Shown: one piece after another, positions 6,715-60,866 of the stretch
Numbering within the stretch: position 1 is the first letter of the stretch
How the letters are laid out: every line of letters starts with the position of its first letter
NCBI RefSeq assembly: GCF_030252325.1
Contig: NZ_CP126981.1
Span: forward strand, 4,712,001-4,776,000
Reading direction: 5' to 3'
Source: Candidatus Mycobacterium wuenschmannii
GTDB taxonomy: Bacteria > Actinomycetota > Actinomycetes > Mycobacteriales > Mycobacteriaceae
Length of the DNA: 64,000 nt
Translations under genes and position numbers: made by a program
Notes under the pieces: model-generated
Seen by the model: the letters and a program-made list of their open reading frames with translations, nothing else
What the model was told of the DNA's origin: nothing
Database searches by the model: none

Positions 6715-6762
6715 CCAGCCCGAATACAGCAACCGAGTAGACAGAACAGGATCCGAACAGCC

Positions 6763-7426: not shown

Positions 7427-7430
7427 CACC

Positions 7431-7850: not shown

Positions 7851-7864
7851 GGAGGAACTGAAAG

Positions 7865-8470: not shown

Positions 8471-8533
8471 CACCCTGAGCCAGCCGGCTCAGGTCTGAAC
8501 GGCATCAAATAGCGGGTGCCGAGAAGGAGATAG

Positions 8534-9589
<1,056 letters not shown>

Positions 9590-9649
9590 GAACATTGGAG
9601 TCCCGGTCCTACCTGATACGGGGGCCGGCCCCTTTAAGGAGAAGTCGCA

Positions 9650-10210: not shown

Positions 10211-10220
10211 CGGTAAGTCG

Positions 10221-11707: not shown

Positions 11708-11757
11708 GAGCAAACGTTAGCGGGTAAAACTAATTGCCCGCTGTGAGCGACCTGTGG

Positions 11758-12408
11758 TCAGCCGAGCTTTCCGGCGACGAAGTCGGCAGCCTGGTTGACC
11801 TGGCCATCGTGGATGTAGCCGCCGGCCATGTGCTGTGACCAGTTGTTCTGCCAGGTGTGGGGATCGGCCGGGTTGCAGATCGGATCGGCGCCGTGGCACA
11901 GGTCGATGGTGCGGTCGGCGTAGAGGCCGTTGAGGTTCGCGATCGGGCCCACCCAGTTGCTGCCGTTGCCGAAGAGGGCGACCGCGGCGACGTGCTGGTC
12001 GGCCCCGGGCGGAAGCGGATTGGTGAAGCCGAACATCGCGCCGGGAGCCGCCAGCACGACGTCGGTGACCGCGGCGCCGAGCGAGTAGCCGCCCAGCACC
12101 ACCCGGGTGTCCGGGCAGCCGTTGATCGTCGACTGGACATGGGCGCTCATGTCGTTAGCGCCTTGGGCGACTTCGGTATTGGCGGGGTAATTCACCGCGT
12201 AGAGGCTGACGTTGCGGCTGACCTTGGATCTCAAGGCGCTCACGAAGGCGTTGCCGAGTATGCCGGCGCCCGGCGGTTCCTGCCGTCCGCGGGCGAACAC
12301 CACCTCGACGTCAGAGCAGGAGGCCGATGCTGCCGGGATCAGGATCGCGGGCGCAAGCGCCAAGCCGGTGGCGAGCGCGAGTCTGCTCAGCGTCGAACGC
12401 GGGGTCAT
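11758..12408 (-). CDS. Secreted cutinase-family serine esterase (CULP) 2
   Basis: 216 residues from an ATG at 12408. Signal peptide MTPRSTLSRLALATGLALA with an alanine-rich cleavage region, then the cutinase fold: VVFARGRQEPPGAG, nucleophile elbow GGYSLGAAVTDV, and catalytic Asp/His in DLCHGADPICNP and NNWSQHMAGGY. Closely related to the 11090 gene, with conserved VNYPAN, GANDM and VALFGNG, which points to local duplication. It starts 15 bp after the third cutinase ends, so these two genes are probably one transcript. Confidence 0.94.
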   Translation of the reverse strand: MTPRSTLSRLALATGLALAPAILIPAASASCSDVEVVFARGRQEPPGAGILGNAFVSALRSKVSRNVSLYAVNYPANTEVAQGANDMSAHVQSTINGCPDTRVVLGGYSLGAAVTDVVLAAPGAMFGFTNPLPPGADQHVAAVALFGNGSNWVGPIANLNGLYADRTIDLCHGADPICNPADPHTWQNNWSQHMAGGYIHDGQVNQAADFVAGKLG

Positions 12409-43776: not shown

Positions 43777-45288
43777 ATGGACCGCATTTGGCAATGGGCG
43801 TGGGATCACCACAAAACCCGGTACTCGTGGGCGTGCTGGGCGCTCACCCTCCCACTAGCCCTCCCGGTCTTTCTCGCCTGGACGTTGGGCATCGTCGCGC
43901 TAGAGGGATCTCATTGCTACGCCGAGGCGGCCGCGGTGACGATGATCGCTGTGCCCGCATACCTGTATATGGGGGCGCTTCCAGGCGGACGAGACGGCCG
44001 CCCCATCGAGCGATGGGCCGCCGGCGCCGAGGTTGATCGAGAGAGCGCGCTGCGCGCCACCTATAGCCATGGCCGGAAGTTGATCGTGCGAGGAGTGGTC
44101 GTAACCAGCGCGTCGATCGCCGCGCTGTTCGCTGGCGTCGGGACGATCGCCGGGGCCAGCGGGTCGCGGGTCGTTCAGTACGCCCTCTTGGGGGCCATCG
44201 CCGGAACCGCAAGCCAGCTGATCACGCTGCACAGCCTCATCGAGGCAACGATGCGGCCAGCCAGGGCTGCCCTCACCTCGGATATCGAAATCGGCGGTTC
44301 CCTGCCTCGCTCTCGCCCGGGGTTCGCCACGTGGAACAACGTGGCCATCCTTGCGGTGGCGTTCGTCTTTGCCGTGGCGGGCGCGATTCTGGCAGTGGTG
44401 CTCGACGCGGCCGGTCACGGTCCCGGCCTGGCCCTGGTGATCGGCGGCCTGTTGGTGCTCGTCGTCGGCCCATCACTGTGGGCCGCGTATTCGCCACTGC
44501 TGCAATCGATTCGCGACCTCACCGACGGGACCGAGCGTGTCGCGGCCGGTGATTACGGTCAACGACTGCCGGTGGTGCAGGATGACGACCTCGGCGCGTT
44601 GGCAGCATCTTTCAACCGCATGCAGGCGGGATTGGCTGAGCGGCAACGACTTCAGGCGGCGTTTGGCACCTACGTTGATCCGGGGCTGGCGGAACGACTG
44701 CTCAAGCAGGGTGACCATGTCTTCACCGGCGAGCGCCGCGAGGTGACCGTGATGTTCGTCGACATCCGCGACTTCACCCCGTTCGCCGAGGCGCACAGTG
44801 CCGAGGACACCGTCGCACGGCTGAATGCGTTGTTCGAGATCGTGGTGCCCGCCGTCGTCGAAGCCGGGGGGCACGTCAACAAATTCCTCGGTGACGGTGC
44901 GCTTGCGGTGTTCGGCGCCCCGAACGATGTCGCCGGTCATGCCGACGCGGCGGTGGGCGCAGCGATGGCGATCGATCGCCTCGTCGCTGAGCGATTCGAA
45001 GGTGGGCTTCGTATCGGCATCGGGATCAACACCGGTGTCGTGATCGCCGGCACCATCGGCGGCGCCGGCAAGCTCGAGTTCACGCTGATTGGCGATACCG
45101 TCAACGTCGCCGCCCGGGTAGAGCAGCTGACGAAGTCCACCGGCGACGCCATCCTCCTAACTCGGCAGACCGTGGATGCCTTGGCGGTGCGACCCAGCGG
45201 GCTCGGCGACCGGGGCTCCCATGCACTGAAGGGAAAGTCGGCAGCGACAACACTTTTCGGCCTCGCCCCTGTCGTCGCGCAGCGCTGA
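43777..45288 (+). CDS. Membrane class III adenylate/guanylate cyclase with HAMP domain
   Basis: 503 residues. Six hydrophobic segments in the first 240 residues, then a HAMP linker (SPLLQSIRDLTDGTERVAAGDYGQRL), then a class III cyclase domain. Metal-binding aspartates lie in MFVDIRDFTPF and in KFLGDGALAVFGAP; the transition-state region is LIGDTVNVAARVEQL. This layout matches the Rv1318c-Rv1320c and Rv3645 cyclases of M. tuberculosis. Starts 27 bp after the lipoprotein gene. Possible source of the nucleotide sensed by the cNMP-domain kinase at 1168, though they lie 41 kb apart (speculative). Confidence 0.93.
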   Translation: MDRIWQWAWDHHKTRYSWACWALTLPLALPVFLAWTLGIVALEGSHCYAEAAAVTMIAVPAYLYMGALPGGRDGRPIERWAAGAEVDRESALRATYSHGRKLIVRGVVVTSASIAALFAGVGTIAGASGSRVVQYALLGAIAGTASQLITLHSLIEATMRPARAALTSDIEIGGSLPRSRPGFATWNNVAILAVAFVFAVAGAILAVVLDAAGHGPGLALVIGGLLVLVVGPSLWAAYSPLLQSIRDLTDGTERVAAGDYGQRLPVVQDDDLGALAASFNRMQAGLAERQRLQAAFGTYVDPGLAERLLKQGDHVFTGERREVTVMFVDIRDFTPFAEAHSAEDTVARLNALFEIVVPAVVEAGGHVNKFLGDGALAVFGAPNDVAGHADAAVGAAMAIDRLVAERFEGGLRIGIGINTGVVIAGTIGGAGKLEFTLIGDTVNVAARVEQLTKSTGDAILLTRQTVDALAVRPSGLGDRGSHALKGKSAATTLFGLAPVVAQR

Positions 45289-46003: not shown

Positions 46004-46885
46004 ATGTCCGGAAAGCTCGAAGGCAAGGTCGCTTTCATCACGGGGGCGGCGCGCGGTCAGGGCAGGGCCCACGCCATCGCCATGGCGCAGGAAGGTGCCG
46101 ACATCATCGCGGTCGACATCTGCCGCGACATCCCCTCGAACCCGTACCCGCTCGCGACACCCGACGATTTGTCCGAAACCGAGCGCGCCGTCAAGGAACT
46201 CGGCCGTCGCGTGCTGGCGCGCGTCGCCGATGTCCGCGAGCGGCACGAGCTGCGAGAGGCCGTCGAGGCGGGCGTGGCCGACCTCGGCAAGATCGACATC
46301 GTCGTCGCTAACGCCGGCATCCTCCCAATGGCCATGGGCCGGCCGCACGACGCGATGTCGTTCGTCGACGCCTCCGACGTCGACCTGCTCGGCGTGATGA
46401 ACACCGTCGCGGTCACGGTGCCGCACCTGCCCAACGGATCGTCGGTGATCATCACCGGGTCGACGGCGGGCATGATCCGGGGGACGACCGACAACCCGAA
46501 CATGGGCCCCGGCGGCCGCGGGTACGGCTGGAGCAAGCGGGTGATCATCGAGTACGTCGAGGAGATGTCGCTGGCTTTGGCGGACAGGATGATTCGCGTC
46601 AACGCCATCCACCCGACGAACTGCAACACCCACCTGCTGCAGAACGACGGCATGTACAGCATGTTCCGTCCGGACCTCACTCAGCAGGGCAAGCAGGCGA
46701 GCCGCGAGGACGCCGAACCGCTGTTCACCCTCTTCCAGGCGATGCCCATTCCCTATGTCGAGCCCGAGGACATGGCAAACCTCGGCGTCTTCCTGGCGAG
46801 CGACGACAGCCGCTACATCACCGGTCAGCAGATCAGGGTGGATGGCGGCTCGTTGCTGAAGTGGCCCAACGGGCCTGGGGGATAG
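46004..46885 (+). CDS. Mycofactocin-coupled SDR family oxidoreductase (carveol dehydrogenase-like)
   Basis: 293 residues from ATG 46004 with GGACGGAGAGGG upstream. Rossmann motif ITGAARGQGRAHAIAMAQEG and acidic VDICRD for NAD. Catalytic Ser in ITGSTAGM, and YGWSK with Tyr/Lys. The insertion after the first strands (SNPYPLATPDDLSETERAV) is typical of SDRs that hold a non-exchangeable NAD re-oxidised by mycofactocin. Probably oxidises an alcohol intermediate. It begins the catabolic block and is followed 18 bp later by the VWA gene. Confidence 0.9.
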   Translation: MSGKLEGKVAFITGAARGQGRAHAIAMAQEGADIIAVDICRDIPSNPYPLATPDDLSETERAVKELGRRVLARVADVRERHELREAVEAGVADLGKIDIVVANAGILPMAMGRPHDAMSFVDASDVDLLGVMNTVAVTVPHLPNGSSVIITGSTAGMIRGTTDNPNMGPGGRGYGWSKRVIIEYVEEMSLALADRMIRVNAIHPTNCNTHLLQNDGMYSMFRPDLTQQGKQASREDAEPLFTLFQAMPIPYVEPEDMANLGVFLASDDSRYITGQQIRVDGGSLLKWPNGPGG

Positions 46886-46903
46886 GCTGATTCGCTGAAA
46901 ACA

Positions 46904-48601
46904 GTGGTGACTGTCAACGAAGCCGACCTGCTGCACGATCTCGGCGTGTTCGCCTCTGCTTTCGCCGGGCGCGCAATCGGGGTGGACGCGCAGCGCCCGG
47001 GCGAGCCGACGTGGACCGACGGCCAGACGATCTATGTCGATCCGTCAGCGTCGCTCGACACCAACCTTGAGGCGATCGCCGTCCAGGCGTCGATGATCGC
47101 TGCGGGAAGCTTCGATCCGGAGATCGCGCGGCAGTTGGGCCGGCATTCGAGATTGGCCCGGCGTTACCTGGCGGTTGAAGGACATCGCGCCCTGGTGGCG
47201 AACGCCGAGGTGCTGCCGCGTCAGCTGGCATCGCTGGGCAGCACCGGTATCGCCGAACGCACTGGCTCGCCGCAGGATTCGCTGGCGCTGGCCGGTAGCA
47301 AGGACCCGATCGACGAACCACCCGCCGTGTTCGGTGCGATCCGCGCGAACAAGGTGCTGGCCGCCGGCGCGCGCGCAACCAAGCAGGCCGAGCAGGAGGC
47401 GCCGGCGCACGTACCGCGTCGCGGGCAGCGGCAGGAACTCGAAGAACTCGACGACGATGCCGTCGACGACACCGACGATCCCGATCTGTTCACCAGTCCG
47501 GTGGGCGGTGGCGGTTTCATCGGCAAGTGGCTCAAGAAGATGCTGTCCTCGGCCCGCAAGACGGGTAGCGGGGGCGGCCCGCCCGGAGCGGACACCCCGA
47601 CCCATCGTACGAACTCCGGAACCCGGGGCGCCTACGCCGTCTCATCGCTGGCGTCGGCATCTAGCGAGAACGTCATCGACCACGAAGCGGACCTGCGCTC
47701 CCGCGGCGTGAAATATCCGGAATGGGATGCCGGTCGCAAGAGCTACCGGCACGATTGGTGCACCGTCGTCGAAACCGAGCCTGTCACAAAGGGATCGGCG
47801 AGTTCGGCCATCGACGCCGCCATCGGCGTGCGGCGCCCGCTAGCTCGGCTCGGGATGGGTCTGCACCGCTCACACCGCCAGCCCCAGGGTGACGACCTCG
47901 ACATCGACGCTGTGGTCGAAGCCCGCGTCGAGGCGATGGCCGGGTCGGTGCCCGACGAGGCGGTGTACCTCGACAGCATGCGACGACGCCGCGACCTGTC
48001 GGTGCTGTTGTTGCTGGACATCTCGGGTTCGACGGCCGAGGCCGGCACGGTGGGCCGCACCGTGCACGAGCAGCAGCGCGCCGCGGTCGCCAACCTCACC
48101 GTCGCGCTGCACGATCTCGGCGATCGCGTGGCGCTCTACGCCTACTACTCGCAGGGGCGCGGCGCGGTGAGCATGGTTCCGGTCAAGCGTTTCGACCATC
48201 ATCTCGACAGCCAGGTGCTCAGGCGGCTGAACAGCTTGGAGCCCGGGGCATATTCGCGGTTGGGCGCGGCGATCCGCCACGGCTCCGCCGTGCTGGAGGC
48301 TCGCGGGGGCACCTCGCGACGGCTGCTGGTGGTGCTGTCCGACGGGCTGGCCTACGACCACGGGTACGAGCGCGCCTATGGGGCGGCCGACGCGCGGCGC
48401 GCGTTGAGCGAGGCTCGCCGGCGCGGCACCGGATGTGTGTGCTTGACGGTGGGAGCGGGCACCGACGTCGAGTCTCTGCGCAGGGTGTTCGGCAGCACCG
48501 CGCACGCCAGCGTCGCGCGCCCCGATGAGCTCACGAATGTCATTGGGCCGCTGTTCCGTTCGGCGATCCGATCGGCCGAAGTGCGGAGGCGGGTGTCATG
48601 A
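46904..48601 (+). CDS. VWA-domain protein, NorD/CbbO-like
   Basis: 565 residues from GTG 46904 (GTG 46907 also possible). The N-terminal half has an irregular helical region with an acidic stretch (ELEELDDDAVDDTDDPD). The C-terminal half is a von Willebrand A domain with MIDAS motif LLLLDISGSTAE and the later SDGLAYDHGYERAYG. NorD and CbbO partner a MoxR-type ATPase to insert or remodel metal centres; the partner is at 48681. No nitric oxide reductase or RuBisCO gene is nearby, so the client must be another enzyme of this cluster. Confidence 0.88.
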   Translation: MVTVNEADLLHDLGVFASAFAGRAIGVDAQRPGEPTWTDGQTIYVDPSASLDTNLEAIAVQASMIAAGSFDPEIARQLGRHSRLARRYLAVEGHRALVANAEVLPRQLASLGSTGIAERTGSPQDSLALAGSKDPIDEPPAVFGAIRANKVLAAGARATKQAEQEAPAHVPRRGQRQELEELDDDAVDDTDDPDLFTSPVGGGGFIGKWLKKMLSSARKTGSGGGPPGADTPTHRTNSGTRGAYAVSSLASASSENVIDHEADLRSRGVKYPEWDAGRKSYRHDWCTVVETEPVTKGSASSAIDAAIGVRRPLARLGMGLHRSHRQPQGDDLDIDAVVEARVEAMAGSVPDEAVYLDSMRRRRDLSVLLLLDISGSTAEAGTVGRTVHEQQRAAVANLTVALHDLGDRVALYAYYSQGRGAVSMVPVKRFDHHLDSQVLRRLNSLEPGAYSRLGAAIRHGSAVLEARGGTSRRLLVVLSDGLAYDHGYERAYGAADARRALSEARRRGTGCVCLTVGAGTDVESLRRVFGSTAHASVARPDELTNVIGPLFRSAIRSAEVRRRVS

Positions 48602-48612
48602 CGAGACGTCGC

Positions 48613-48642
48613 CTTGAAACTAACATCTGTTCCACTTACGCT
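48613..48642 (+). promoter_or_regulatory. Promoter overlapping AT-rich box copy 4, before the MoxR-like gene
   Basis: TTGAAA (48613-48618) and TACGCT (48637-48642), 18-bp spacing, resembles a housekeeping promoter. Box copy 4 (GAACAGATGTTAGTTT on the minus strand, 48617-48632) lies between the hexamers, where a bound protein would repress. It is the most divergent copy, and its core AACAgaTGTT is itself a palindrome. Confidence 0.45.
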
Positions 48643-48680
48643 CCATTCACCGCATCGCAGCGGTCGGCGGAAGGGTAGTT

Positions 48681-49520
48681 ATGGCCACCGAGCCCACACT
48701 CGCTCACCACAACGGCGCGTCCTCCGCGACGCGGCCCTACTACCAGGCCGTCGGCAACGAAGAGGCCGTCTTCAAGGCCGCCTACCGGCAGGGTCTGTCG
48801 CTGGTGCTCAAGGGTCCGACCGGGTGTGGCAAGACCCGCTTCGTCGAGGCGATGGCCCACGATCTGGGTCGGCCGCTGATCACGGTGGCCTGCCACGACG
48901 ACCTGACAGCCGCCGATCTCGTCGGCCGGTATCTACTGCGCGGCGGCGAGACGGTCTGGGTCGACGGCCCGTTGACGCGGGCGGTGCGTGACGGCGCGAT
49001 CTGCTACCTCGACGAGGTGGTCGAAGCTCGTCAGGACACCACCGTGGTGCTGCACCCGCTCGCCGACCACCGGCGTCAACTGCCCATTGAACGACTAGGC
49101 GAGACGCTCTCTGCGGCACCGGGATTCGGACTTGTCGTGTCCTACAACCCCGGCTACCAGAGCGTGCTGAAGGACCTCAAGGACTCGACGCGACAGCGGA
49201 TGGTGGCCATCGAGTTCGGCTTCCCGGCGCCCGACGTGGAGGAGGGCATTGTCGCCCACGAAGCGGGTGTGGACGCCACCACGGCGGCCGAGCTGGTGAA
49301 GTTCGGCCAGGCCATCCGTCGACTGGAGGCGGGTGGCCTGCGAGAGGTCGCGTCCACCAGGGTGCTGATCGCCGCGGGCCGGCTGATGGCTGAGGGTCTG
49401 CCGGCCGACGCGGCGGCGGAAGCGGCGATCGCCGGGCCGCTGACCGACGACGTCGCGGTCAACCGCAGCCTCAAACAGCTGATCACCGTCTACCTCGGGG
49501 ACAGCAACCCCGTCCGATGA
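48681..49520 (+). CDS. MoxR-family AAA+ ATPase, CbbQ/NirQ/NorQ type
   Basis: 279 residues. Walker A LKGPTGCGKTRFVEAMA, Walker B AICYLDEVVEA, sensor region GFGLVVSYNPGY, and the C-terminal CbbQ_C-like end (VNRSLKQLITVYLGDS). Hexameric remodeller acting with the VWA protein encoded 80 bp upstream. Together they resemble NorQ-NorD. Candidate clients are the P450, the AveC-like membrane protein or a metalloenzyme elsewhere. Confidence 0.92.
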   Translation: MATEPTLAHHNGASSATRPYYQAVGNEEAVFKAAYRQGLSLVLKGPTGCGKTRFVEAMAHDLGRPLITVACHDDLTAADLVGRYLLRGGETVWVDGPLTRAVRDGAICYLDEVVEARQDTTVVLHPLADHRRQLPIERLGETLSAAPGFGLVVSYNPGYQSVLKDLKDSTRQRMVAIEFGFPAPDVEEGIVAHEAGVDATTAAELVKFGQAIRRLEAGGLREVASTRVLIAAGRLMAEGLPADAAAEAAIAGPLTDDVAVNRSLKQLITVYLGDSNPVR

Positions 49521-49551
49521 TTGACGCCGTTGAGCGGCCAGACTAGGGTCT

Positions 49552-49567
49552 GAACAAATATTAGGTC
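49552..49567 (+). promoter_or_regulatory. 16-bp AT-rich box, copy 3 (upstream of the solute-binding-like gene)
   Basis: Reads GAACAAATATTAGGTC on the plus strand. It lies 41 bp before the 49608 start, in the 87-bp gap after the MoxR-like gene. Matches the shared consensus at 14 or more positions. A ggtcgcg/cgcgacc inverted repeat (49564-49570 and 49588-49594) partly overlaps it. Marks the likely start of the 49608-57297 operon. Confidence 0.55.
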
Positions 49568-49607
49568 GCGCTCGACAACGTGGTGGGCGCGACCACGTGG
49601 AGGTCAC

Positions 49608-50726
49608 ATGTCCTACGAGAGCACAGCCGAGCCGATCAAAGTCGGATATCTGATGGACTTCACGCTGCCGCCCGGTTTCCCCGAGGAGCTGTTCGCCTCC
49701 TTCACCCAGACCTTCGACCTGATCTTCGAAGAGGCGCTGGAGCAGGGCCTGCTGGACCGTCCGGTGCAGATGATCTACCGCGAGGTGGAGGGCCTGCCTA
49801 AGGGTTCGGTCAAGGCCGTCATCGATGCCTACGGCGAGCTGGTCGACGAGGGGTGTCTGGTCGTGTTCGGTCCCAACATCACCGACAACTGCGTCGCCGT
49901 GAAGGAAGCGATCGAGGAGCGATTCAAGGTTCCCGCGATCAGCGTCACGGGGACCGACGACTGGCTCGGCGAGTGGACGTTCGCGTTCCCGCAGGGCTCG
50001 ATGACCGACGAGCCGATCTTTCTGGCCGACCTGATCGGCAAGCGGGGGATCACCGAGATCGGCGTGCTGATGGAGCAGAGCCTGATCGGGCAGAGCTATC
50101 TCGCGAATCTGCGAACCGCGTGTCAGCGCAAGGGTATTCGGATCGTCGCCGAAGTCGCGGTGGCGCAGACCGCGCAGGACATCAACGAAGCCGTGCGCAC
50201 TCTGCACGACGCGAAGGCCGAAGCGATCGTCCACCTGGGCTTCGGCTTCGGAATCGTGTTCATCAACCCGGCCTTGGAGGCCGTCGACTGGGACCCGCCG
50301 CGCTTCACCACCACGGCGTGGCAGAACGCCTGGGTCAACCCGATCATGTGGAACGCGTTCATGGGCTGGACCGGCGTCGACCAGTACGACGAGGCGAACA
50401 AGATCGGACAGGACTACCTCGACGCGTATGCGAAGAAGTACGACGGCAGCCGTCCCGAGTTCTGCGTGACGGTGGTCAACCGCGACGTCGCCGCCACTCT
50501 GGTGCGGGCCTTCAGCGATGCTCACCCGCTGAGCCCGCGCGGCGTCAAGGAGGCGCTGGAGCGGGTGAAGATGCTGCCCGCCGCGTCCGGCGCACCCGGC
50601 ACCCGGGTGTCGTTCGGCAAGTGGACCCGCCGCGCCTGGATGGGCGCCGGCTACCTGGTCGCCCGCACGCTGGACGCCGACGGCGTCAACTCGCACCTTG
50701 TGGACCGCTTCGGGGAAGAAGGGTGA
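49608..50726 (+). CDS. Solute-binding-protein-fold protein (Leu/Ile/Val-binding type) without signal peptide
   Basis: 372 residues from ATG 49608. Two-lobed type 1 periplasmic-binding fold (VGYLMDFTLPPGFPEEL; VFGPNITDNCVAVKEAIEE; VHLGFGFGIVFINPALEAV). The N-terminus MSYESTAEPIKVGYL goes straight into the first strand with no hydrophobic signal or lipobox. No permease or ABC ATPase is adjacent. It therefore looks cytosolic, as a ligand sensor, carrier or accessory protein for the P450/AveC pathway. First gene of a tight operon, 7 bp before the next. Confidence 0.85.
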   Translation: MSYESTAEPIKVGYLMDFTLPPGFPEELFASFTQTFDLIFEEALEQGLLDRPVQMIYREVEGLPKGSVKAVIDAYGELVDEGCLVVFGPNITDNCVAVKEAIEERFKVPAISVTGTDDWLGEWTFAFPQGSMTDEPIFLADLIGKRGITEIGVLMEQSLIGQSYLANLRTACQRKGIRIVAEVAVAQTAQDINEAVRTLHDAKAEAIVHLGFGFGIVFINPALEAVDWDPPRFTTTAWQNAWVNPIMWNAFMGWTGVDQYDEANKIGQDYLDAYAKKYDGSRPEFCVTVVNRDVAATLVRAFSDAHPLSPRGVKEALERVKMLPAASGAPGTRVSFGKWTRRAWMGAGYLVARTLDADGVNSHLVDRFGEEG

Positions 50727-50733
50727 GGAACAC

Positions 50734-51858
50734 ATGAGTACCGATCAATCCACACCGGTCGATGCCGGTGCTAAAACCGCTGCACCGCAACGTAAATGGG
50801 GCGGCTGGATCGCCGGCGCGGCGTTGGCCGCGTTTGCACTGTTCTTCATCGCCAATCGGCGCTGGGTGCTCGACCCGCGCGTCGCCAACCCGAACGTGCA
50901 CGGCCGCCCGCGGCCGGTGAAGTTCATCTTCGGGTTGGACTACATCGGCTTCCTCGACGCGGCCACCTGCGTCGCGTTGGCCATCCTCTTGATCGTCTTC
51001 ATCAGGGGCTGGCGACGTAATCCGGGCAGCCCGGCGATGCTGATGTTCCTGTGCACCACATTGATCGTGTGGCAGGACCCGATCATGAACTGGTCGCCGT
51101 TCGCGGTCTACAACCCCGACCTGATCCACTGGCCCGAGTCGTGGCCGCTGGTGTCGCTGTCACCGACCGTCGAGCCGTTCGTGGTGTTCGGCTATGTGAT
51201 GTTCTACTTCGGCCCGTACTTCCCGGCGGTGTGGATCCTGCGCAAGCTGCAGGCGAAATATGGCCCTACGAGCTATGTCTCGCGCCATCCACTGGTCAGC
51301 CTCGGTCTGCTCGCGCTGGTGATCGGCTTCATCTTCGACGCATGGCTGGAGATCCAGCTCGTGCACACCGGGATGTACATCTACTCGCAGGTGATCCCGT
51401 GGGGTTCGGTATTCACCGGCACCACATTCCAGTTCCCGTTGATCTGGGAGTCGTTCTCGGTGTGCTTCGTGATGGTGCCGGCCGCGATCCTGTGCTATCG
51501 CGACGACACCGGAAAGTCGGTTGCGGAAAAGCTTGCCGCCAAGGCGAAGTTGTTCCCGACCCGTCCGGTGCTCGGCACGTTCCTGGTGATGTTTGCGATC
51601 ATCAACGTGTCGTACTTCGCCTACGGCGGCTGGTTCTGGGTCATCAAGGTCAGCCACGCCGCCACCTCGGTCGCGTGCCCATGGCCGTACCCGGAAGCCA
51701 AAGTCTATGACCCGCAAGGCTTCTACGAGAAGGCCGGCGCGCAAGGCCCGTACTCGGTCGGCATCTGGTCGACGTGGGCCAGCGGCGAGCCCAACGGCCG
51801 CCCGCACGTCGATGCTCCGCCTCCGGGCGTCGGGGCCTGCGCGAGCAAGAATGGCTGA
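50734..51858 (+). CDS. AveC-family multi-pass membrane protein
   Basis: 374 residues from ATG 50734. About seven hydrophobic segments (GWIAGAALAAFALFFIAN; AATCVALAILLIVFI; LVSLGLLALVIGFIFDAW; LGTFLVMFAIINVSYFAYGG). Loops carry NRRWVLDPRVANPNVHGRPR and IVWQDPIMNW. I recognise it as the family annotated spirocyclase AveC, named for the avermectin protein. In mycobacteria the reaction is unknown. Its stop overlaps the start of the SDR by 8 bp. Confidence 0.8.
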   Translation: MSTDQSTPVDAGAKTAAPQRKWGGWIAGAALAAFALFFIANRRWVLDPRVANPNVHGRPRPVKFIFGLDYIGFLDAATCVALAILLIVFIRGWRRNPGSPAMLMFLCTTLIVWQDPIMNWSPFAVYNPDLIHWPESWPLVSLSPTVEPFVVFGYVMFYFGPYFPAVWILRKLQAKYGPTSYVSRHPLVSLGLLALVIGFIFDAWLEIQLVHTGMYIYSQVIPWGSVFTGTTFQFPLIWESFSVCFVMVPAAILCYRDDTGKSVAEKLAAKAKLFPTRPVLGTFLVMFAIINVSYFAYGGWFWVIKVSHAATSVACPWPYPEAKVYDPQGFYEKAGAQGPYSVGIWSTWASGEPNGRPHVDAPPPGVGACASKNG

Positions 51859-52840
51859 GCCACACAGCGTCGTCGTCACCGGCGCATCCCGGGGACTCGG
51901 CCTCGCGACGGCCGCGCGGCTGTACCGCGAGGGGTGGCGCGTGGTGGCCGCGATGCGTACCCCCGACGCCGGGATGGCGCAACTGCGCCAGCTGACTGGT
52001 GCCGGCGCCGACGACGACCGGCTGATCGGGGTCCAACTCGATCTGACGGACCAGGCCTCGGTCACGGCCGCCGCGAAGGCGATCATCGAGGCGGTCGGTG
52101 CGCCGTTCGCGATCGTGCACAACGCCGGCATCTCCGCCGCCGGAATGGTCGAGGAGACCGATATGGCGTTGTGGCAGCGGCTGTTTGCGACCAGCGTGCT
52201 GGGCCCCGTCGCACTGACCCAGGCGCTGCTGCCGTCGATGCGGGCCACCGGTCACGGCCGCATCGTGCTGGTGTCCAGCGCGGCCGGAGTGCGCGGTCAG
52301 CCCGCCACCGCGCCGTACTCCGCGGCCAAGGGCGCGCTGGAGCGCTGGGGTGAGTCGATGGCCGTCGAGATCGCGCCGTTCGGCCTGGGCGTCACCGTGC
52401 TCGTGGCCGGCACGTACGACACCGAGATCATCACCGACGCGGGCACCACCGACGATCGCGATTTCGCCGGCCCTTACGCGCGACTGCACAACACCATGAA
52501 CAGTCGCGGACGGGCCGCGATGAAGCTGGCCCGGCCGCCGGAGAAGTTTGCCGACGGCGTGCTCAAGGCCCTCGGCGACACTGGGTCGTTCCGTCGCCGC
52601 GGCGTGGGACCCGATGCGTCGATGTTGTTGGTATCCAACCGAATTCTGCCGGCGATCGGCATGCACCACATGTCGCGGGTGGTGCTCGGCATCCCCAAAC
52701 AGGGTTCGATGCGCGACGGCGCCTGGCCGCTCACTACAGCTCAGAAGGCCATGGTGTTCGCGACGAAAGTCATCCCGCAGCCGGTGATGCAGCGCCTGGT
52801 GGCGTTGGCGGCCAAGCGGAACAAGGGAAATGAGGAGTAG
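51851..52840 (+). CDS. Short-chain dehydrogenase/reductase
   Basis: 329 residues from ATG 51851, overlapping the AveC-like gene. Rossmann motif VVTGASRGLGLATAARL, HNAGISAAG, catalytic Ser in LVSSAAG, and YSAAKGALERWGE with Tyr/Lys. Classical type without the mycofactocin-linked insertion. A C-terminal extension of about 80 residues follows the core. Presumably oxidises or reduces a carbonyl in the same pathway as the P450 6 bp downstream. Confidence 0.9.
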   Translation: MAEPHSVVVTGASRGLGLATAARLYREGWRVVAAMRTPDAGMAQLRQLTGAGADDDRLIGVQLDLTDQASVTAAAKAIIEAVGAPFAIVHNAGISAAGMVEETDMALWQRLFATSVLGPVALTQALLPSMRATGHGRIVLVSSAAGVRGQPATAPYSAAKGALERWGESMAVEIAPFGLGVTVLVAGTYDTEIITDAGTTDDRDFAGPYARLHNTMNSRGRAAMKLARPPEKFADGVLKALGDTGSFRRRGVGPDASMLLVSNRILPAIGMHHMSRVVLGIPKQGSMRDGAWPLTTAQKAMVFATKVIPQPVMQRLVALAAKRNKGNEE

Positions 52841-52846
52841 GTAGCG

Positions 52847-54064
52847 ATGGAACAGCTTTTCGACGACCTCGAAGACTTCGGGGCGTTCGACGACGCGATC
52901 TCCGGCGATGTGCGCGACCCGTACACCGAATTGGCGCGGTTGCGCCGCGAGGAGCCCGTGCAACGGCTCGACACCTCGGGCGCTCTGCCGCACGAGGAGT
53001 CGCTGCCGATGTTCATCGTGTACCGCCACGAGGACGTCCAACAGATGTTGCGTGACAACGAGACGTTCTCCTCGGCGGCGGTCATCGCGGCGTTCGGGCC
53101 CGTGCTCGGCGAGGGCGTGATGCTCGGCATGGACGAGCCCCGGCACGGCCGGTTGCGCTCACTGGTGTCGAAAGCGTTCTCGCAGAAGGCGTTGGCGAAG
53201 TGGCAGGACGAGCTGGTCGGCCGGGTGGCCAACGGGCTGATCGACAACTTCGCGGCCAACGGCAAGGCCGACCTGGTCAAGGAATTCACCTTCGACTACC
53301 CGAGCCAGATCATCGCCGGCCTGCTCGGCCTGCCGGAGCAGGACTACCCGCAGTTCCAGCGCTGGTCCATCTCCCTGCTGAGCTGGCTGATGAACCCCGA
53401 GCGCGGACTGGCCGCCTCGGCCGCCCTGTGCGAGTACTTCGAGCCGATCCTGGAGGCCCGCCGCGCCGAGCCCAAGGACGATCTGATCAGCGCGCTGGGC
53501 GCCGCCGAGATCGACGGCGAGAAGCTGACCAACGAGGAGATCTTCTCGTTCCTGCGGCTGCTGCTGCCCGCCGGGGTGGAGACGACCTACCGCTCGCTGG
53601 GCAGCCTGCTGCTCGGGTTGTTGTCTAACCCGGAGCAACTCGAGGCCATCCGCGCGGACCGCTCGCTGATCCCGCAGGCGATCGAGGAGGGCGTGCGCTG
53701 GGAGCCGCCACTGCTGACCATTACCCGGGTCGCGACCAAGGACACCGTGCTCGGCGGGGTTGACATCCCGGCCGGCTGCACGGTGATGCCGATGCTGGGT
53801 GCGGCCAACCGCCAGGACGACCGATACGAAGACCCCGACACTTTCGACATCTTCCGTCAGGCCAAGGCCAACCTGGGCTGGGGGCATGGCGTCCACGTCT
53901 GTCTCGGCATGCATCTGGCCCGGCTGGAGATGCGCACGGCGATCAACCTGCTGCTCGACCGGCTGCCCAACCTGCGGCTGGATCCGGACGCCGACGACCC
54001 GCACGTTCGTGGGCAGGTGTTCCGGTCGCCGACCGCGGTGCCGGTGCTCTTCGATCCGCAGTAG
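52847..54064 (+). CDS. Cytochrome P450
   Basis: 405 residues, soluble bacterial class. I-helix AGVETTYRSLGSLL with the acid-Thr proton relay; ExxR-type EEGVRWEPPLL; heme loop LGWGHGVHVCLGMHLARLEM with thiolate ligand Cys352 (the canonical first Phe is Leu). Hydroxylates an unactivated carbon using ferredoxin electrons; no ferredoxin gene is adjacent. Likely the entry or second oxidation of the pathway. An 89-bp gap follows. Confidence 0.95.
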   Translation: MEQLFDDLEDFGAFDDAISGDVRDPYTELARLRREEPVQRLDTSGALPHEESLPMFIVYRHEDVQQMLRDNETFSSAAVIAAFGPVLGEGVMLGMDEPRHGRLRSLVSKAFSQKALAKWQDELVGRVANGLIDNFAANGKADLVKEFTFDYPSQIIAGLLGLPEQDYPQFQRWSISLLSWLMNPERGLAASAALCEYFEPILEARRAEPKDDLISALGAAEIDGEKLTNEEIFSFLRLLLPAGVETTYRSLGSLLLGLLSNPEQLEAIRADRSLIPQAIEEGVRWEPPLLTITRVATKDTVLGGVDIPAGCTVMPMLGAANRQDDRYEDPDTFDIFRQAKANLGWGHGVHVCLGMHLARLEMRTAINLLLDRLPNLRLDPDADDPHVRGQVFRSPTAVPVLFDPQ

Positions 54065-54153
54065 ATCGCCGATACGCCTTTACATCGACAGGCGCAGCCG
54101 TAAAGTCCTCTCTGAGCGTCTGCTCAACTTTCCGCTCAGGAGGGACGACGCGA

Positions 54154-55020
54154 GTGACCGAGCCGCTGCGCGACATCCGGGACTTTCTCGACGATGCCGA
54201 CGCGTACCGGGATGAGCTGTACCGACGCTGGACAGGGTTGCTCAGCTACCGCTACATCGGGCGCAACCACTCTTCGATGAACGTCGGCGACACCGATGAC
54301 ACGGTCGTCATCCGCCGCGACATGCGCAACGAGGCCGGCGGAATCATGGTCGCGCCGTTGGCGATTGCCTCGCCGGAAGGCTGCCAGACCGACATGGTGG
54401 CGGTGCCCAACCCGGTGATCGCCTCGGTGCAGATCGTCGACCCCGGATACGACGTCAAACGGGTCGAGATCGTCGACTCCGGCAACGTCCACCAGGGTCG
54501 GATGATGGGCTACGGGCGGTGCAAGATCGTCGACGCCGACAACCCCGAACGGGTCATCGCGTTCAACGAGGGTCAGGGCGCGATCATCGGCATCCCCCCG
54601 GAAGGCCTTGGCAAGATGGATGTTTCGGGCACCGAACTGGTGATCGAGGACTCGCCCGATCTCCCGCCGCTGTGGCAGGCGTTCGGTGCCACCAAGCGAC
54701 CCGACAGCCGGTGGCAACTGCCCGCGCTCAGCGCCGAACTGGCGTCGCCCGATGCGGCGCTGCACATCGGCCCGCAGCACGTGCTGCTGGAAACCGCCGC
54801 GATCGACCTCGCCGCCGATGCCGTCGGCACCCGCAAGCTGCAGGTGGTCAGCTGGCACGTGATGTTCATGTCACGTGGCAAGGTCGGGCCGTTTCGAGTC
54901 GAGGGCACCGCGCACGCCAGCGGATCGGGCCGCGTCGGCGTGCGGATGCTGCTGCACGACGAAGGCAACGCCGACAAACCGGTGACGTCGGCGGCGGCCA
55001 CCTTCGAGATCGTCGGCTGA
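54154..55020 (+). CDS. Hotdog-like (thioesterase/dehydratase-fold) protein of unknown function
   Basis: 288 residues from GTG 54154 with CAGGAGGG upstream. Two halves with hotdog-type strand patterns; the second (ALHIGPQHVLLETAAIDLAADAVG then SWHVMFMSRGKVGPFRVEGTAHASG) resembles a PaaI-type module. No clear catalytic Asp/Glu triad recognised. It could bind or hydrolyse an acyl-CoA made by the downstream CoA-transferase (inference). A small CTTTAC/GTAAAG inverted repeat lies in the 89-bp gap upstream and may hold an internal promoter. Confidence 0.65.
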   Translation: MTEPLRDIRDFLDDADAYRDELYRRWTGLLSYRYIGRNHSSMNVGDTDDTVVIRRDMRNEAGGIMVAPLAIASPEGCQTDMVAVPNPVIASVQIVDPGYDVKRVEIVDSGNVHQGRMMGYGRCKIVDADNPERVIAFNEGQGAIIGIPPEGLGKMDVSGTELVIEDSPDLPPLWQAFGATKRPDSRWQLPALSAELASPDAALHIGPQHVLLETAAIDLAADAVGTRKLQVVSWHVMFMSRGKVGPFRVEGTAHASGSGRVGVRMLLHDEGNADKPVTSAAATFEIVG

Positions 55021-55036
55021 TACCAGGGAGTGAGAG

Positions 55037-56044
55037 ATGGTCAACGCCAAGGACGCTCGTCAGTGGGCGCGCCATTCGCTGCACGGTATCGGGGACTCGC
55101 TCTACACCCCGTTCAGCGGCCGCGACGGCGACGACATCGACTGGGACGCTTATCGCACGCTGGTCCGGCACTGTGTGGGCACGCTGCATCACCCGATGCT
55201 CTGGGTCACCAGCGGCGTGGCGGAGTTCTGGTCATTGACGATCGCGGAACGAAAGCAGCTGCTGGAAGTGGCGATCGACGAGGCCCGCGGCCTCAACCCG
55301 GAGGTCATCGTCCAGGCCTGTACCGCCGCGATGTCGGCGAAGGACTGCCTCGAGTTGACCCGGCATGCGCAGGACGTCGGCGCCGACATCGTCTACATCC
55401 AGACACCGATGATGGAATTGCACGGTGGCGAAGGCGTTTTGGGCTTCTTCCGCTATATCGCCGACCGGACCGACATCGCGCTGGGCATGTTCAACTCGCC
55501 CAGCTCTGGTTACGTGCTCTCGGCGCAGGAAGGCGCCCGGATCGTCGAGGAGATTCCCGCGGTGTGCGCAACCAAGGAGGGATCGTTTCGGCCGCACCAG
55601 AGTCGCATGCTGCACGAGCTCGCGCCGGATCTGGTGATCTGGGAGTGCGATACGACGGTGTACCGGGCCGGGTGGCTGCGAGCCGGCATCGTCGGACCCG
55701 GGCAACTCGGCACCACCGGCTACCTCTTCGAGACCGCGGAAAAGCGTGCGCTGTCGCAATACTGGGACATGGTGTGGAACGACAAGCTGGTCGAGGCGAT
55801 GGACTTCGCCAAAGAGTCCGGTCTCGACCAATTCGAGCTCGACATGCGCGGCTGGTTCACCCGGTACCCCGGCCGGCCGGACTACTTCACCCACTGGGGC
55901 GGGGCGTTCAAGTATGCGGCGTCGGTGCTGGGGTTGCCGATCGGGTCGTATCCGGAATCCCGCCCGCCGCAAGCGAAGCTGCCCGAGCAGGCGCGCACCG
56001 ACATCCGGGCGGCCTACCGCCGGTTCGGGCTCATCAGCGAATAA
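55037..56044 (+). CDS. Dihydrodipicolinate-synthase superfamily lyase/aldolase
   Basis: 335 residues. TIM-barrel class I aldolase of the DHDPS/NAL superfamily, with Schiff-base Lys180 in VCATKEGSF. The usual catalytic Tyr in the YNxP motif is Phe here (GMFNSPSSGY), so it is not a normal DapA. The superfamily includes hydratase-aldolases that cleave aromatic ring products. A retro-aldol or hydration step is plausible. Lies 16 bp after the hotdog-like gene. Confidence 0.85.
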   Translation: MVNAKDARQWARHSLHGIGDSLYTPFSGRDGDDIDWDAYRTLVRHCVGTLHHPMLWVTSGVAEFWSLTIAERKQLLEVAIDEARGLNPEVIVQACTAAMSAKDCLELTRHAQDVGADIVYIQTPMMELHGGEGVLGFFRYIADRTDIALGMFNSPSSGYVLSAQEGARIVEEIPAVCATKEGSFRPHQSRMLHELAPDLVIWECDTTVYRAGWLRAGIVGPGQLGTTGYLFETAEKRALSQYWDMVWNDKLVEAMDFAKESGLDQFELDMRGWFTRYPGRPDYFTHWGGAFKYAASVLGLPIGSYPESRPPQAKLPEQARTDIRAAYRRFGLISE

Positions 56045-56076
56045 CTGAAAACGATTGTGAAATTGGAGGACTCGTA

Positions 56077-57297
56077 ATGACAGACGCCAAACCGCTCAGC
56101 GGCATCCGGGTGCTGGAAGTCGCGGCCTGGACGTTCGTCCCGGCAGCCGGCGCGGTGCTGGCCGAGTGGGGCGCCGACGTGATCAAGGTCGAGCCGCGTG
56201 AAGGCGGCGATCCGCAACGTGGTCTGGTCACCATGGGACTCATCCCCGGCGGTCCGACCGCCGTCAACTACATGATCGAAATGCCCAACCGTGGAAAGAA
56301 ATCCATCGGTATCGACCTCACCACGCCTGGTGGTCAGGAGGTCGTCCACGAACTGGCCAAGAGCAGCGACGTTTTCCTCACCAGTTATCTGCCCAGCCGC
56401 CGCAAGCACTTCGGCATCGAGATCGATCAGATTCGCGCCGCCAACCCCGACATCATCTATGTCCGCGGATCCGGTTACGGCCCTGAGGGTCCCGATGCCG
56501 ACCGGCCCGGGTACGACGGCGTCTCCTTCTGGTCGCGCGGCGGGATCGCCGACGCGCTCACTCGCGAACTGCCGGAGCCCGTCATGCAGACCCCGGCCTT
56601 CGGTGACCTGATGGGCGGGCTGACCATCGCCGGCGGAATCGCCGCGGCGTTGTTCAAGCGCAAGGCCACCGGTGAGACCTCGATCGTGGACGTCTCACTG
56701 CTCGGCCTCGCGGCGTGGGCAATGACGCCGCAGGTGACCGCCGCGAATCTGTATGGCGGCGACCCGATTCCGACGTTCACCCACCGTGAGATGCCCAACC
56801 CGCTGGTCGGCAACTACAAGACCAAGGACGACCGCTACATCACGCTGATGATGCTGCAGGGCGACAAGTTCTACCCCGAGTTCATGACGGTCATCGGCCG
56901 TACCGACTTGATCACCGACGAGCGCTTCGCCGACGGGCATTCGCGCTTCATGAATCGCGGTGAGCTGATCGACATCATGGACGAGGAGTTCGGCTCCAAG
57001 ACACTCGACCAGTGGCGCGACATCCTCAAGCCGCTGACGGGCGCCTGGGGTGTGTTGCAGAAGAGCAGCGAGCTACATGAAGACCCAGCCGTGATCGCCA
57101 ACGGCTACATCCCCGAGGTGACGGCGATGAACGGCAAGCCTTACATCCTGCCGACCAACCCGGTGCAGTTCAACGGCCAGCACGTGCAGCCGACCGGCGC
57201 ACCCGAGCATGGTCAGCACACCGAGGAGATCCTTCTCGATGCCGGGGTCGACTGGGACAAGATCGAGCAGTACAAGCAGGACGGGTCGATTCTGTAG
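56077..57297 (+). CDS. CaiB/BaiF-family (class III) CoA-transferase
   Basis: 406 residues from ATG 56077 with TTGGAGGA upstream. N-terminal SGIRVLEVAAWTFVPAAGAVLAEWGADVIKVE; conserved catalytic Asp177 in FGDLMGGLTIAGG; C-terminal KPLTGAWGVLQKSSELHEDP. Activates a carboxylic acid by transferring CoA from another acyl-CoA, a typical step toward beta-oxidation. Last gene of the operon that starts at 49608. An in-frame extension upstream overlaps the DHDPS-like gene and is rejected. Confidence 0.93.
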   Translation: MTDAKPLSGIRVLEVAAWTFVPAAGAVLAEWGADVIKVEPREGGDPQRGLVTMGLIPGGPTAVNYMIEMPNRGKKSIGIDLTTPGGQEVVHELAKSSDVFLTSYLPSRRKHFGIEIDQIRAANPDIIYVRGSGYGPEGPDADRPGYDGVSFWSRGGIADALTRELPEPVMQTPAFGDLMGGLTIAGGIAAALFKRKATGETSIVDVSLLGLAAWAMTPQVTAANLYGGDPIPTFTHREMPNPLVGNYKTKDDRYITLMMLQGDKFYPEFMTVIGRTDLITDERFADGHSRFMNRGELIDIMDEEFGSKTLDQWRDILKPLTGAWGVLQKSSELHEDPAVIANGYIPEVTAMNGKPYILPTNPVQFNGQHVQPTGAPEHGQHTEEILLDAGVDWDKIEQYKQDGSIL

Positions 57298-57363: not shown

Positions 57364-58071
57364 GTGAGCCGCGTATCGCCAGCCGTCGCGCTGCTGTTCG
57401 CCGGGCTGGTCGGGTGTACCACGACCGTTGCCGGCCATGGCAACCCAACGCTGCCGACGGTCGCTGAGCGGGCTCTCCCTAGCCCGGCCGAACTCGCCGA
57501 CAGCGTGCGACAACCGATGCTGCGCGATTCGATCGCACAGGTAGGCGGGTTGGAGGCGCTCAGGCCGGACAATGACGCCGCGACTCCCGCGGACTGTGCG
57601 GTCTGGACTCACGCCGGTAACCAGCGCAGTTACCGGGGTGCACCCCTGCGCATCGCCGCCCGTGAATCCTGGAAGACGCCGCCATCCGTCGAAAATGGTG
57701 TCACCGTCACCGTGGTGGTGGTCGAGATGGACTCTGCGGCAAGCAATTTAACCCGATACACCACGACCGCCACCCGCTGGGGCCGCTGCCGCGGCGTCAC
57801 CGTCAACGAACGACTCAGCGCATTGACGTTCATCGAACAGATCCGCAGCGTGGGCGATGCCGACGGCATGTTGACCGCGGAACTGGCCGTGTCGACCGCC
57901 GACGACGTGATGACGCCGAGCCTGAGCCGGCGCGCACTCACCACCACGGCCCAGTATGTCGTCGACGTCGAGGTCTTCGGCATGCTCGATACGCCTGAGT
58001 ACGACCACTTCGATGCCGCGGCTGTCGCGCACGCCACCGTCGACAAGATCGGCCGGCTCACGGGCCGCTAG
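57364..58071 (+). CDS. Secreted lipoprotein, possibly PknH-like sensor domain
   Basis: 235 residues from GTG 57364. Signal PAVALLFAGLVGC with lipobox LVGC and Cys18. The mature domain has two cysteines (PADCAVWTHAGNQ and GRCRGVTV) in places that recall the extracellular PknH_C-type sensor domain of mycobacterial lipoproteins, and ends in helical FDAAAVAHATVDKIGRLTG. Domain assignment is tentative. Not part of the catabolic operon by spacing (66 bp) or theme. Confidence 0.72.
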   Translation: MSRVSPAVALLFAGLVGCTTTVAGHGNPTLPTVAERALPSPAELADSVRQPMLRDSIAQVGGLEALRPDNDAATPADCAVWTHAGNQRSYRGAPLRIAARESWKTPPSVENGVTVTVVVVEMDSAASNLTRYTTTATRWGRCRGVTVNERLSALTFIEQIRSVGDADGMLTAELAVSTADDVMTPSLSRRALTTTAQYVVDVEVFGMLDTPEYDHFDAAAVAHATVDKIGRLTGR

Positions 58072-59888: not shown

Positions 59889-60866
59889 GTGTCCCACGCT
59901 AATGCCCGTTTGACCGTTCACGGCCGCGCTTTGCTCGTCGATCGAATCATCGGTGGTCGACGACCGGTTGCCCATGTCGCGGCCGAACTGGGTGTTTCAC
60001 GACAGTGCGCGCATCGCTGGGTGCGGCGTTTCCGCGAGCTCGGATCGGCGGGTTTGGCGGATCGATCGTCACGGCCGCAGCGGTGCCCGCGCCGTACGGC
60101 ACCCGAGATCGAAGCTCAGGTGATCGCCCTGCGTCTGCGCGAGCGCCGCGGCCAAGACTGGATCGGGGCCGAGCTTGGAGTCTCGCCGCGCACCGTCAGT
60201 ACGATCCTGCGACGCCACCAGGTGCCGTATCTGCGTGACTGTGATCCGCTCACCGGCACACCAATCCGCGCATCGAAAACCACCGCGGTCCGCTATGAAC
60301 GAGCACGACCTGGCGAGCTAATCCATATGGACGTCAAAAAGATTGGCCGCATCCCGGCCGGCGGTGGATGGAAGGCCAACGGCCGGGCTGCCGGAGATAC
60401 CTACGCCCACAAGGTCGCCGGCACCGGATTCGATTACGTGCACTCAGCTGTCGATGACCACTCCCGTTTGGCGTATTCCGAGATCCTTGCTGACGAGAAA
60501 GGCCAAACGTGCGCGGCGTTTCTCACCCGGGCCGCCACGTATTTCGCGGCGTACGGCGTCACCAGCATCGAGCGCGTCATCACCGACAACCACTTCAGTT
60601 ACCGGCGATCAGCCGCCGTGGCCGACGTGATCGCCTCGCTCAATGCCACGCACAAATTCATCCGTCCGCATTGCCCTTGGCAGAACGGCAAAGTCGAGCG
60701 CTTCAACCGAACCCTGCAAACCGAATGGGCCTACCGCCAGATCTTCACCACCAATGACGCCCGCAGCGCAGCCCTTGCCCCCTGGCTTGACCACTACAAC
60801 AATCAACGACGCCACACAGCACTCGGAGGCCAACCCCCGATCAGCCGACTGACAACAACGTCTTAG
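59889..60866 (+). CDS. IS481-family DDE transposase
   Basis: 325 residues from GTG 59889. N-terminal helix-turn-helix (PVAHVAAELGVSRQCAHRWVRRF) and a second one (GAELGVSPRTVSTILRR). Integrase-core catalytic triad Asp148 (HMDVKK), Asp233 (VITDNH) and Glu270 (GKVERFNRTL), and the C-terminal LDHYNNQRRHTALGGQPP. Intact and full length for the family. Expression may be limited by the RBS-sequestering hairpin just upstream. Confidence 0.97.
   Translation: MSHANARLTVHGRALLVDRIIGGRRPVAHVAAELGVSRQCAHRWVRRFRELGSAGLADRSSRPQRCPRRTAPEIEAQVIALRLRERRGQDWIGAELGVSPRTVSTILRRHQVPYLRDCDPLTGTPIRASKTTAVRYERARPGELIHMDVKKIGRIPAGGGWKANGRAAGDTYAHKVAGTGFDYVHSAVDDHSRLAYSEILADEKGQTCAAFLTRAATYFAAYGVTSIERVITDNHFSYRRSAAVADVIASLNATHKFIRPHCPWQNGKVERFNRTLQTEWAYRQIFTTNDARSAALAPWLDHYNNQRRHTALGGQPPISRLTTTS

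Follow-up and report, generated by a model that had tools for sequence, protein, structure and literature searches.

Chaperone machines built from a MoxR AAA+ ATPase and a VWA protein are widespread, and to our knowledge only a few of their clients are known. In NorQD, the pair that matures the nitric oxide reductase cNOR, two reports describe NorQ as rotating the VWA domain of NorD; the proposal is that NorD grips the membrane-bound cNOR for iron entry, probably by means of its metal-ion-dependent adhesion site (MIDAS) and two acidic residues on the cNOR surface (PMC13036017, PMC9976466). CbbQO (rubisco activation), CoxDE (CO dehydrogenase) and RavA–ViaA are likewise MoxR/VWA machines with dedicated clients; the clients are different ones, and we saw none of the three systems with AveC or a cytochrome P450. 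Here we describe a cluster of ten genes, labelled A to J, at 4.76 Mb in the 5.10 Mb single-contig genome of Candidatus Mycobacterium wuenschmannii. It lies in a stretch of 64,000 nucleotides (contig NZ_CP126981.1, positions 4,712,001 to 4,776,000), which we refer to as the window. Within the cluster, a NorD/NorQ-like pair (B and C) is followed by a protein with a solute-binding fold (D), a membrane protein of the AveC family (E), a short-chain dehydrogenase/reductase (SDR; F) and a P450 (G). Genes B to G form a core operon that recurs across the genus and beyond, and NorQ and AveC genes are linked to each other in the genomes, outside the core nearly always without a P450.

We profiled genome contigs for relatives of the locus using D, kept the best 80 of 178, and counted gene families in these 80 loci and the window, 81 loci in all. 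Because the counts refer to clusters of predicted genes they are lower bounds; tblastn agrees with them. The core families were present in 81 (D), 79 (C), 77 (F), 75 (G), 74 (B) and 66 (E) of the loci. Around them we found an aldehyde dehydrogenase (ALDH) in 72 loci, a divergent double-TetR-like regulator in 70, a second SDR (SDR_MFE) in 54, two acyl-CoA dehydrogenases in 48 (ACADa) and 42 (ACADb), a second P450 in 41, a thiolase-like gene in 35, the mycofactocin-type SDR A in the fetched flank of 22, and an enoyl-CoA-hydratase-like gene in 19; the TetR, thiolase and enoyl-CoA-hydratase labels were assigned by eye. Among 198 evenly drawn genomes of the genus, orthologs of both D and G were present in 116, D only in 2, G only in none, and neither in 80, once five genomes whose sole D match was a weaker paralog had been taken out of the D count (123 to 118). 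In 113 of the 116, G followed D on the same strand at a distance of 0–6 kb; the two genes were split over contigs in two genomes and stood 51 kb apart in one. With its P450 present in 116 of 198 sampled genomes, this is a widespread mycobacterial operon. Mycolicibacterium vaccae (L073), an environmental species, is among the carriers of B–G.

The core order also recurs outside the genus, in a locus from another genus of the same family (L246) and in three from another family (L239, L283 and L285), at 54–80% identity. In a class-wide draw, 32 of 296 genomes held relatives of D at E <= 1e-50, many of them paralogs. The arrangement tolerates the loss of individual members: F is absent from four core loci (L252–L255), E and F lie about 16 kb away on the contig in L256 and L303, and a locus from another family (L284) keeps the core order without D. 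These cases show that none of D, E and F is singly essential to the core arrangement. A decayed core was seen in a 5.1 Mb single-contig genome of the genus (L210, G085:C1:750000-769500), where D matched over 218 of 372 residues, C had no match, and a 285-aa frame with AveC similarity stands at the place expected for D and E.

The arrangement is thus beyond chance for B–G, and much less so for all ten genes together. We saw all of A–J together in just two genomes, this one and that of a relative (G146, the same contig as L045); the cluster is a composite of the conserved core B–G with A and H–I–J as variable neighbours. The preliminary description of this DNA had taken the ten genes for an oxidative catabolic cluster and had proposed conserved synteny as a check. 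For B–G such synteny holds across the genus and outside it; the ten genes together do not form a single conserved cluster. The catabolic character itself is supported by the B–G synteny and by the ALDH, acyl-CoA dehydrogenase, SDR, and thiolase- and enoyl-CoA-hydratase-like neighbours.

B and C are clear sequence relatives of NorD and NorQ. B matched VWA_2 at 38 bits and a solved NorD (9qhd_G) at E 7.6e-38 over residues 265-554, and a MIDAS-like D-x-S-G-S was kept in all 74 predicted members. C matched CbbQ_C (PF08406) at 93 bits, AAA_5 (PF07728), and a solved NorQ (9qhd_A) at 328 bits, and its Walker A sequence GPTGCGKT occurred in 79 of 79 members. For the H2i motif of NorQ, given as GRXLL/IXXXXT in one report (PMC13036017), C carries GRYLLRGGET, and the listed forms of the motif cover 75 of the 79 members. 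As in NorQD, the pair is linked to a multi-pass membrane protein; unlike in NorQD, that neighbour is AveC-like, and the operon also holds P450, SDR and binding-fold genes. A search of the genome for PF00115, the COX1 family, found a single protein (545.8 bits, at 0.187 Mb, far from the operon) and no separate NorB. Since this sole protein is presumably the aa3 oxidase subunit, a nitric oxide reductase is unlikely as the client of B and C, and we rejected that candidate. An anti-phage role of B–D was also considered and dropped, the matches of C to IetA being weak.

E belongs to the same Pfam family as AveC of avermectin biosynthesis, matching PF17198 at 222.4–222.5 bits against a gathering cut-off of 26.6. 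It has several hydrophobic segments and conserved positions D115/E, N119/D, Y154, R170, R184, Q233, D257 and E265, among which the acidic residues D115 and the D257…E265 motif are nearly invariant. Against PDB, E had no solved relative by sequence, and its fold model, with a predicted local distance difference test (pLDDT) score of 61.2, gave no match at E <= 0.001. PF17198 genes are rare: we counted 36 in 12 genomes, two to four in each, and none in 14 control genomes. In those 12 genomes, 16 of the 18 NorQ genes of at least 60% identity had a PF17198 gene no more than 3 kb away, namely 7 of the 8 core copies and 9 of the 10 remaining ones, as compared with 0.08 expected under uniform placement; conversely, 18 of the 36 PF17198 genes have such a NorQ. 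The two unlinked genes are in G208, where AveC lies 16 kb off on the same contig, and in G391:C2 (L287).

Many of the linked copies belong to second systems that came out of a class-wide search with C, which found 28 of 345 genomes at E <= 1e-75. In thirteen loci (L286 and L288–L299), a NorQ of 61–76% identity is accompanied by a NorD relative and an AveC-like gene, in L295 with some kilobases in between. We also built a tree of 39 AveC proteins. It has several long branches, and many of its rows were obtained through NorQ; NorQD-linked members fall in both deep groups, and the linkage labels force at least 4 changes and need 6, compared with 11.7 in shuffles. The linkage strengthens the earlier suggestion that the AveC-like protein and the NorQD-like chaperones mark a membrane or metal step. 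It is reproducible, and it provides a concrete candidate client for a MoxR/VWA machine in a family for which we found no solved relative. Among the matches listed from the open-licence PubMed Central (PMC) literature, nothing concerned the core operon or AveC together with NorQD.

We propose a mycofactocin-linked oxidation pathway that has B–G as its movable core and in which the NorQD-like pair matures the AveC-like protein E, with H–I–J standing apart; we give this reading an even chance. The substrate would be hydrophobic and would be hydroxylated by G, the resulting alcohol would be oxidised by A and/or F, and an Rv0768-type ALDH, encoded at 2.005 Mb beside two acyl-CoA dehydrogenases, would produce an acid for β-oxidation. 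B and C would form an ATP-driven MoxR/VWA maturation machine working outside denitrification, with E as client in the way that NorQD acts on the membrane protein NorB. We infer this remodelling of E from the MIDAS-like motif of B, the H2i motif of C, and the predicted multi-pass nature and nearly invariant acidic residues of E; a metal may take part in the maturation. On this proposal, mycofactocin would belong to a candidate pathway whose P450, aldehyde dehydrogenase and β-oxidation genes are defined. More generally, and with slightly less confidence than an even chance, we suggest that AveC-like proteins may be a new class of MoxR/VWA clients: integral membrane enzymes that would gain their activity only through remodelling of the NorQD kind. 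They would serve in two or more catabolic systems of actinobacteria, among them one with a Trp-type P450 and mycofactocin and another beside Rieske-like oxygenases.

A number of observations weigh against maturation of E by B and C. The AveC alignment has no conserved His or Cys, so a metal site like FeB is not evident. L287 contains a NorQ of 70% identity and a NorD, and no AveC; in L298 and L299 AveC is on the opposite strand; and in L293 a P450 stands next to NorD in an AveC–NorQ–NorD unit. The AveC2 branch of the tree (7 rows) is without any NorQ linkage, and only one of the four PF17198 genes in this genome stands beside a NorQ of this kind. Loci L259–L261 hold a second copy of E, F and the G-type P450 without NorQD, each in a genome that has another complete core. 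Moreover, 11 of the 12 genomes behind the AveC count were picked for holding NorQ, so that the share of 18 in 36 PF17198 genes with a NorQ is not a class-wide estimate. The sampled genomes are also related and do not represent independent trials. Finally, inside the core operon NorQD is tied to G as tightly as to E.

This last point agrees with a different assignment, in which the NorQD-like pair would be a dedicated chaperone of P450 G, for haem insertion or reactivation, and AveC a bystander. NorQ was present in 92 of the 104 D-ortholog places with enough flank, a count that includes some genomes twice (for example, L087 and L256 are the same contig); G was nearby in 90 of these 92 and E in 89, and G was also missing in 9 of the 12 places without NorQ. 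The L087/L256 contig keeps B–C–D–G together with E and F at a distance, and the P450 beside NorD in L293 would fit as well. G itself (PF00067, 107.9 bits) has the haem loop W-G-[HY]-G-V-H-V-C-L-G in 75 of 75 predicted orthologs. The usual residue of P450s in place of its Trp is Phe, as in P450b and P450c, and the invariance of the Trp is what makes service to G worth weighing. Nevertheless, 12 of the 13 NorQ-paralog loci with AveC lack a predicted P450 in the fetched stretch, three places hold G without NorQD, and the contig of L256 still carries the E that its operon lacks. We therefore consider it unlikely that G is the client.

The linkage of NorQ and AveC could also be neutral, if both genes reside in catabolic islands and were duplicated together once. 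The systems of the window and of the second set could share one ancestral operon, and both have ACAD-, ALDH- and SDR-like genes around them. However, linkage is kept for AveC proteins down to 27–28% identity to the nearest query (L286, L298 and L299), and in L288, L290, L291 and L292 the predicted frames of the two genes directly adjoin. By contrast, AveC was within 3 kb of none of the five NorQ genes of 48–52% identity, and L300–L302, whose NorQ is at 51–53% identity, contained no AveC. Neutral linkage thus seems rather improbable to us.

A further possibility is that the operon builds a product instead of degrading one, with AveC as spirocyclase or dehydratase of a secondary metabolite. AveC of Streptomyces avermitilis is reported to catalyse spiroketalisation and dehydration, and a term search of that paper for chaperone, cofactor and metal found none of these words (PMC13303154). 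E differs from that AveC in standing in a locus of P450 and β-oxidation type: the recurrent neighbours of the core are of β-oxidation type, and no polyketide or peptide synthase was seen among the labelled gene families around it, part of the neighbours being annotated. We regard a biosynthetic role as highly improbable.

Several further loci with AveC-like genes drew our attention. A second AveC-like gene of this genome (L304, G000:C1:267000-283000, 4083-11767) lies beside genes that by eye resemble Rieske-type oxygenases, with no NorQ match, and in relatives an AveC–NorQ–NorD unit is found near a Rieske-type oxygenase (L289 and L292). Repeated genes similar to DapB or 2,4-diaminopentanoate dehydrogenase surround P450, AveC and D paralogs in L159, L246, L305 and L306; the one member of the DapB-like family that was scored fell far below the NF040740 cut-off.

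A scored 330.5 bits on TIGR03971 (cut-off 300), its best solved match is carveol dehydrogenase (3pxx, E 3.4e-80), and the motif YGWSK was present in 22 of 22 members of its family. Mycofactocin biosynthesis was judged by the radical SAM enzyme alone: TIGR03962 scored 661.9 bits in this genome against a cut-off of 265, which none of 14 controls exceeded. Because A passes the SDR model and the genome has the radical SAM enzyme, mycofactocin-coupled alcohol oxidation by A is plausible, in agreement with the earlier proposal that one of the two SDRs is coupled to mycofactocin. The usual ALDH of the operon, taken from L042, is closest to TIGR04284 but at 667 bits stays below the cut-off of 775; this model, of the Rv0768-type aldehyde dehydrogenase, we take to be linked to mycofactocin. 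We know of no NorQD or AveC associated with Rv0768-type ALDH or mycofactocin-coupled SDR systems.

D matched Peripla_BP_6 at 89.3 bits and has a type I binding fold; AmiC was absent among the 50 fold matches listed. No export signal was found in D: the first start codon of the frame is at 49608 and the fold begins at residue 9. The longest open frame of D starts at the same residue in L023 and L042. Our guess is that D binds a ligand in the cytosol, its simplest role being that of a sensor or carrier of the substrate. Two oddities in this family were set aside. An in-frame TGA inside D, which might have indicated decay or recoding, is in the loci checked the gene's own stop, reached two codons early; and a partner domain in two long D2 proteins (P0277 and P0284) was rejected when their extra N-termini looked by eye like spurious translation. 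F matched PF00106 at 146 bits, starts with ATG at 51851, and has YSxxK in 77 of 80 members.

The remaining three genes have weaker ties to the core. H had no sequence match in Pfam or PDB; a paralog 54% identical to it matches PF13622 below cut-off (20.7 versus 24.3 bits), and the domain occurs in a minority of 120 listed relatives of the paralog, so that H is probably a double hotdog protein. I matched PF00701 at 56.3 bits (cut-off 22.1). The lysine of its KEG aligns with that of KEA in dihydrodipicolinate synthase (DHDPS), which we take to be the Schiff-base residue, and the tyrosine of the DHDPS YN.P is Phe in I. J matched CoA_transf_3 (PF02515) at 288.6–291 bits, and the nearest NCBIfam models, for succinate–glutarate and formyl-CoA transferases, both scored far below their cut-offs.

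If all ten genes served one pathway, as the preliminary description supposed, J would transfer CoA and I would cleave a C–C bond, in addition to the hydroxylation and alcohol oxidation. The complete sets in this genome and G146 are consistent with this. So is co-occurrence: I was found in 109 of the 198 genomes, together with D in 103, with 15 having D only, 6 I only and 74 neither. H at 75% identity or more was found in 46 genomes, 43 of which have a D ortholog. Six of the 43 have H and D at most 30 kb apart (G000, G146, G204, G235, G259 and G277), and in four genomes H and I are separated by no more than 5 kb. I lies within 30 kb of D in six of 102 genomes with both (G000, G146, G185, G231, G277 and G305; one is a fragment), and in G235 H stands beside an A of 87% and a J of 77% identity. 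However, only 2 of the 102 have I and a D ortholog no more than 10 kb apart, a count that leaves out G085 with its shortened D. In L162–L164, H comes after an acyl-CoA dehydrogenase gene and is not accompanied by I and J, and in G303 H–I–J occur without the core. The two I loci that we read gene by gene (L199 and L201) have an order of SDR, DHDPS-type gene, enoyl-CoA hydratase and amidohydrolase, with acyl-CoA dehydrogenases. The occurrence and placement of H and I relative to D give a shared pathway moderate support without proving it, and the co-occurrence of D and I may stem from shared ancestry or lifestyle. A single ten-gene pathway is in our view unlikely though not negligible; the best explanation is that H–I–J are a separate hotdog/DHDPS/CoA-transferase module that came to adjoin the core.

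Paralogs of H and D also meet elsewhere. In L160 and L161, from other genomes, an H-like gene (54–58%) and a D-like gene (42–43%) adjoin or lie near each other, a pairing that hints that hotdog and binding-fold proteins work together. In G130, H-like and D-like paralogs are adjacent behind a TetR-like gene.

The positions of the ten genes are given in Table 1. All ten lie on the + strand, and coordinates and family matches agree with the preliminary description, whose statement that most gaps are under 35 bp is true of six of the nine: from A–B to I–J they measure 18, 79, 87, 7, -8, 6, 89, 16 and 32 bp. A scan of the cluster for promoters and terminators gave no signal clearly above shuffles. 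Upstream of A–J are a groEL-type gene, a lipoprotein-like gene and a HAMP adenylate cyclase, the last of these between the groEL-type gene and the cluster; a PknH_C-type lipoprotein-like gene directly follows J.

Table 1. Genes of the cluster and flanking features, in window coordinates
Feature	Coordinates	Strand	Length	Description	Models and matches
A	46004..46885	+	293 aa	Mycofactocin-coupled SDR, carveol-dehydrogenase type (predicted)	TIGR03971
B	46904..48601	+	565 aa	NorD-like VWA protein	VWA_2; solved NorD 9qhd_G
C	48681..49520	+	279 aa	NorQ/CbbQ-type MoxR AAA+ ATPase	PF07728; PF08406; solved NorQ 9qhd_A
D	49608..50726	+	372 aa	Solute-binding-protein fold, no signal peptide	Peripla_BP_6
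E	50734..51858	+	374 aa	AveC_like multi-pass membrane protein	PF17198
F	51851..52840	+	329 aa	Classical SDR; 8 bp overlap with end of E	PF00106
G	52847..54064	+	405 aa	Cytochrome P450, haem-loop Trp for usual Phe	PF00067
H	54154..55020	+	288 aa	Probable double-hotdog protein	PF13622 in relatives
I	55037..56044	+	335 aa	DHDPS-superfamily protein (class I aldolase/hydratase type)	PF00701
J	56077..57297	+	406 aa	CaiB-type (family III) CoA-transferase	PF02515
Cyclase	43777-45288			HAMP adenylate/guanylate cyclase	
Lipoprotein-like gene	57364-58071			Directly after cluster	PknH_C type
Transposase-like gene	59889-60866			IS481 family, shortly downstream of cluster	rve_3; LZ_Tnp_IS481

The usual locus is split in this genome, with the core in the window and the ALDH, TetR and ACAD genes elsewhere on the chromosome. 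In M. triplex (L023), SDRx, TetR2, a nitroreductase, ACADb, ACADa and SDR_MFE are divergent from B–G and ALDH. The genome studied here has counterparts of several of these genes grouped at about 2.00 Mb, namely ALDH (82% identity), ACADa (79%), ACADb (68%), TetR2 (62%) and SDRx (70%), and there the starts of ALDH and ACADa are separated by 185 bp, with no match to B, C, D, E or G at the locus. In the relative G303, H–I–J lie near similar cyclase and lipoprotein genes with no B–G core between. The simplest reading is that B–G left the ALDH/ACAD locus as a unit and came to lie between the adenylate cyclase and H–I–J. In G303 (L172) the lipoprotein-like gene is flanked by two cyclase-like genes. 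The IS481-family transposase-like gene shortly downstream of the cluster (Table 1) may be tied to the move of the block.

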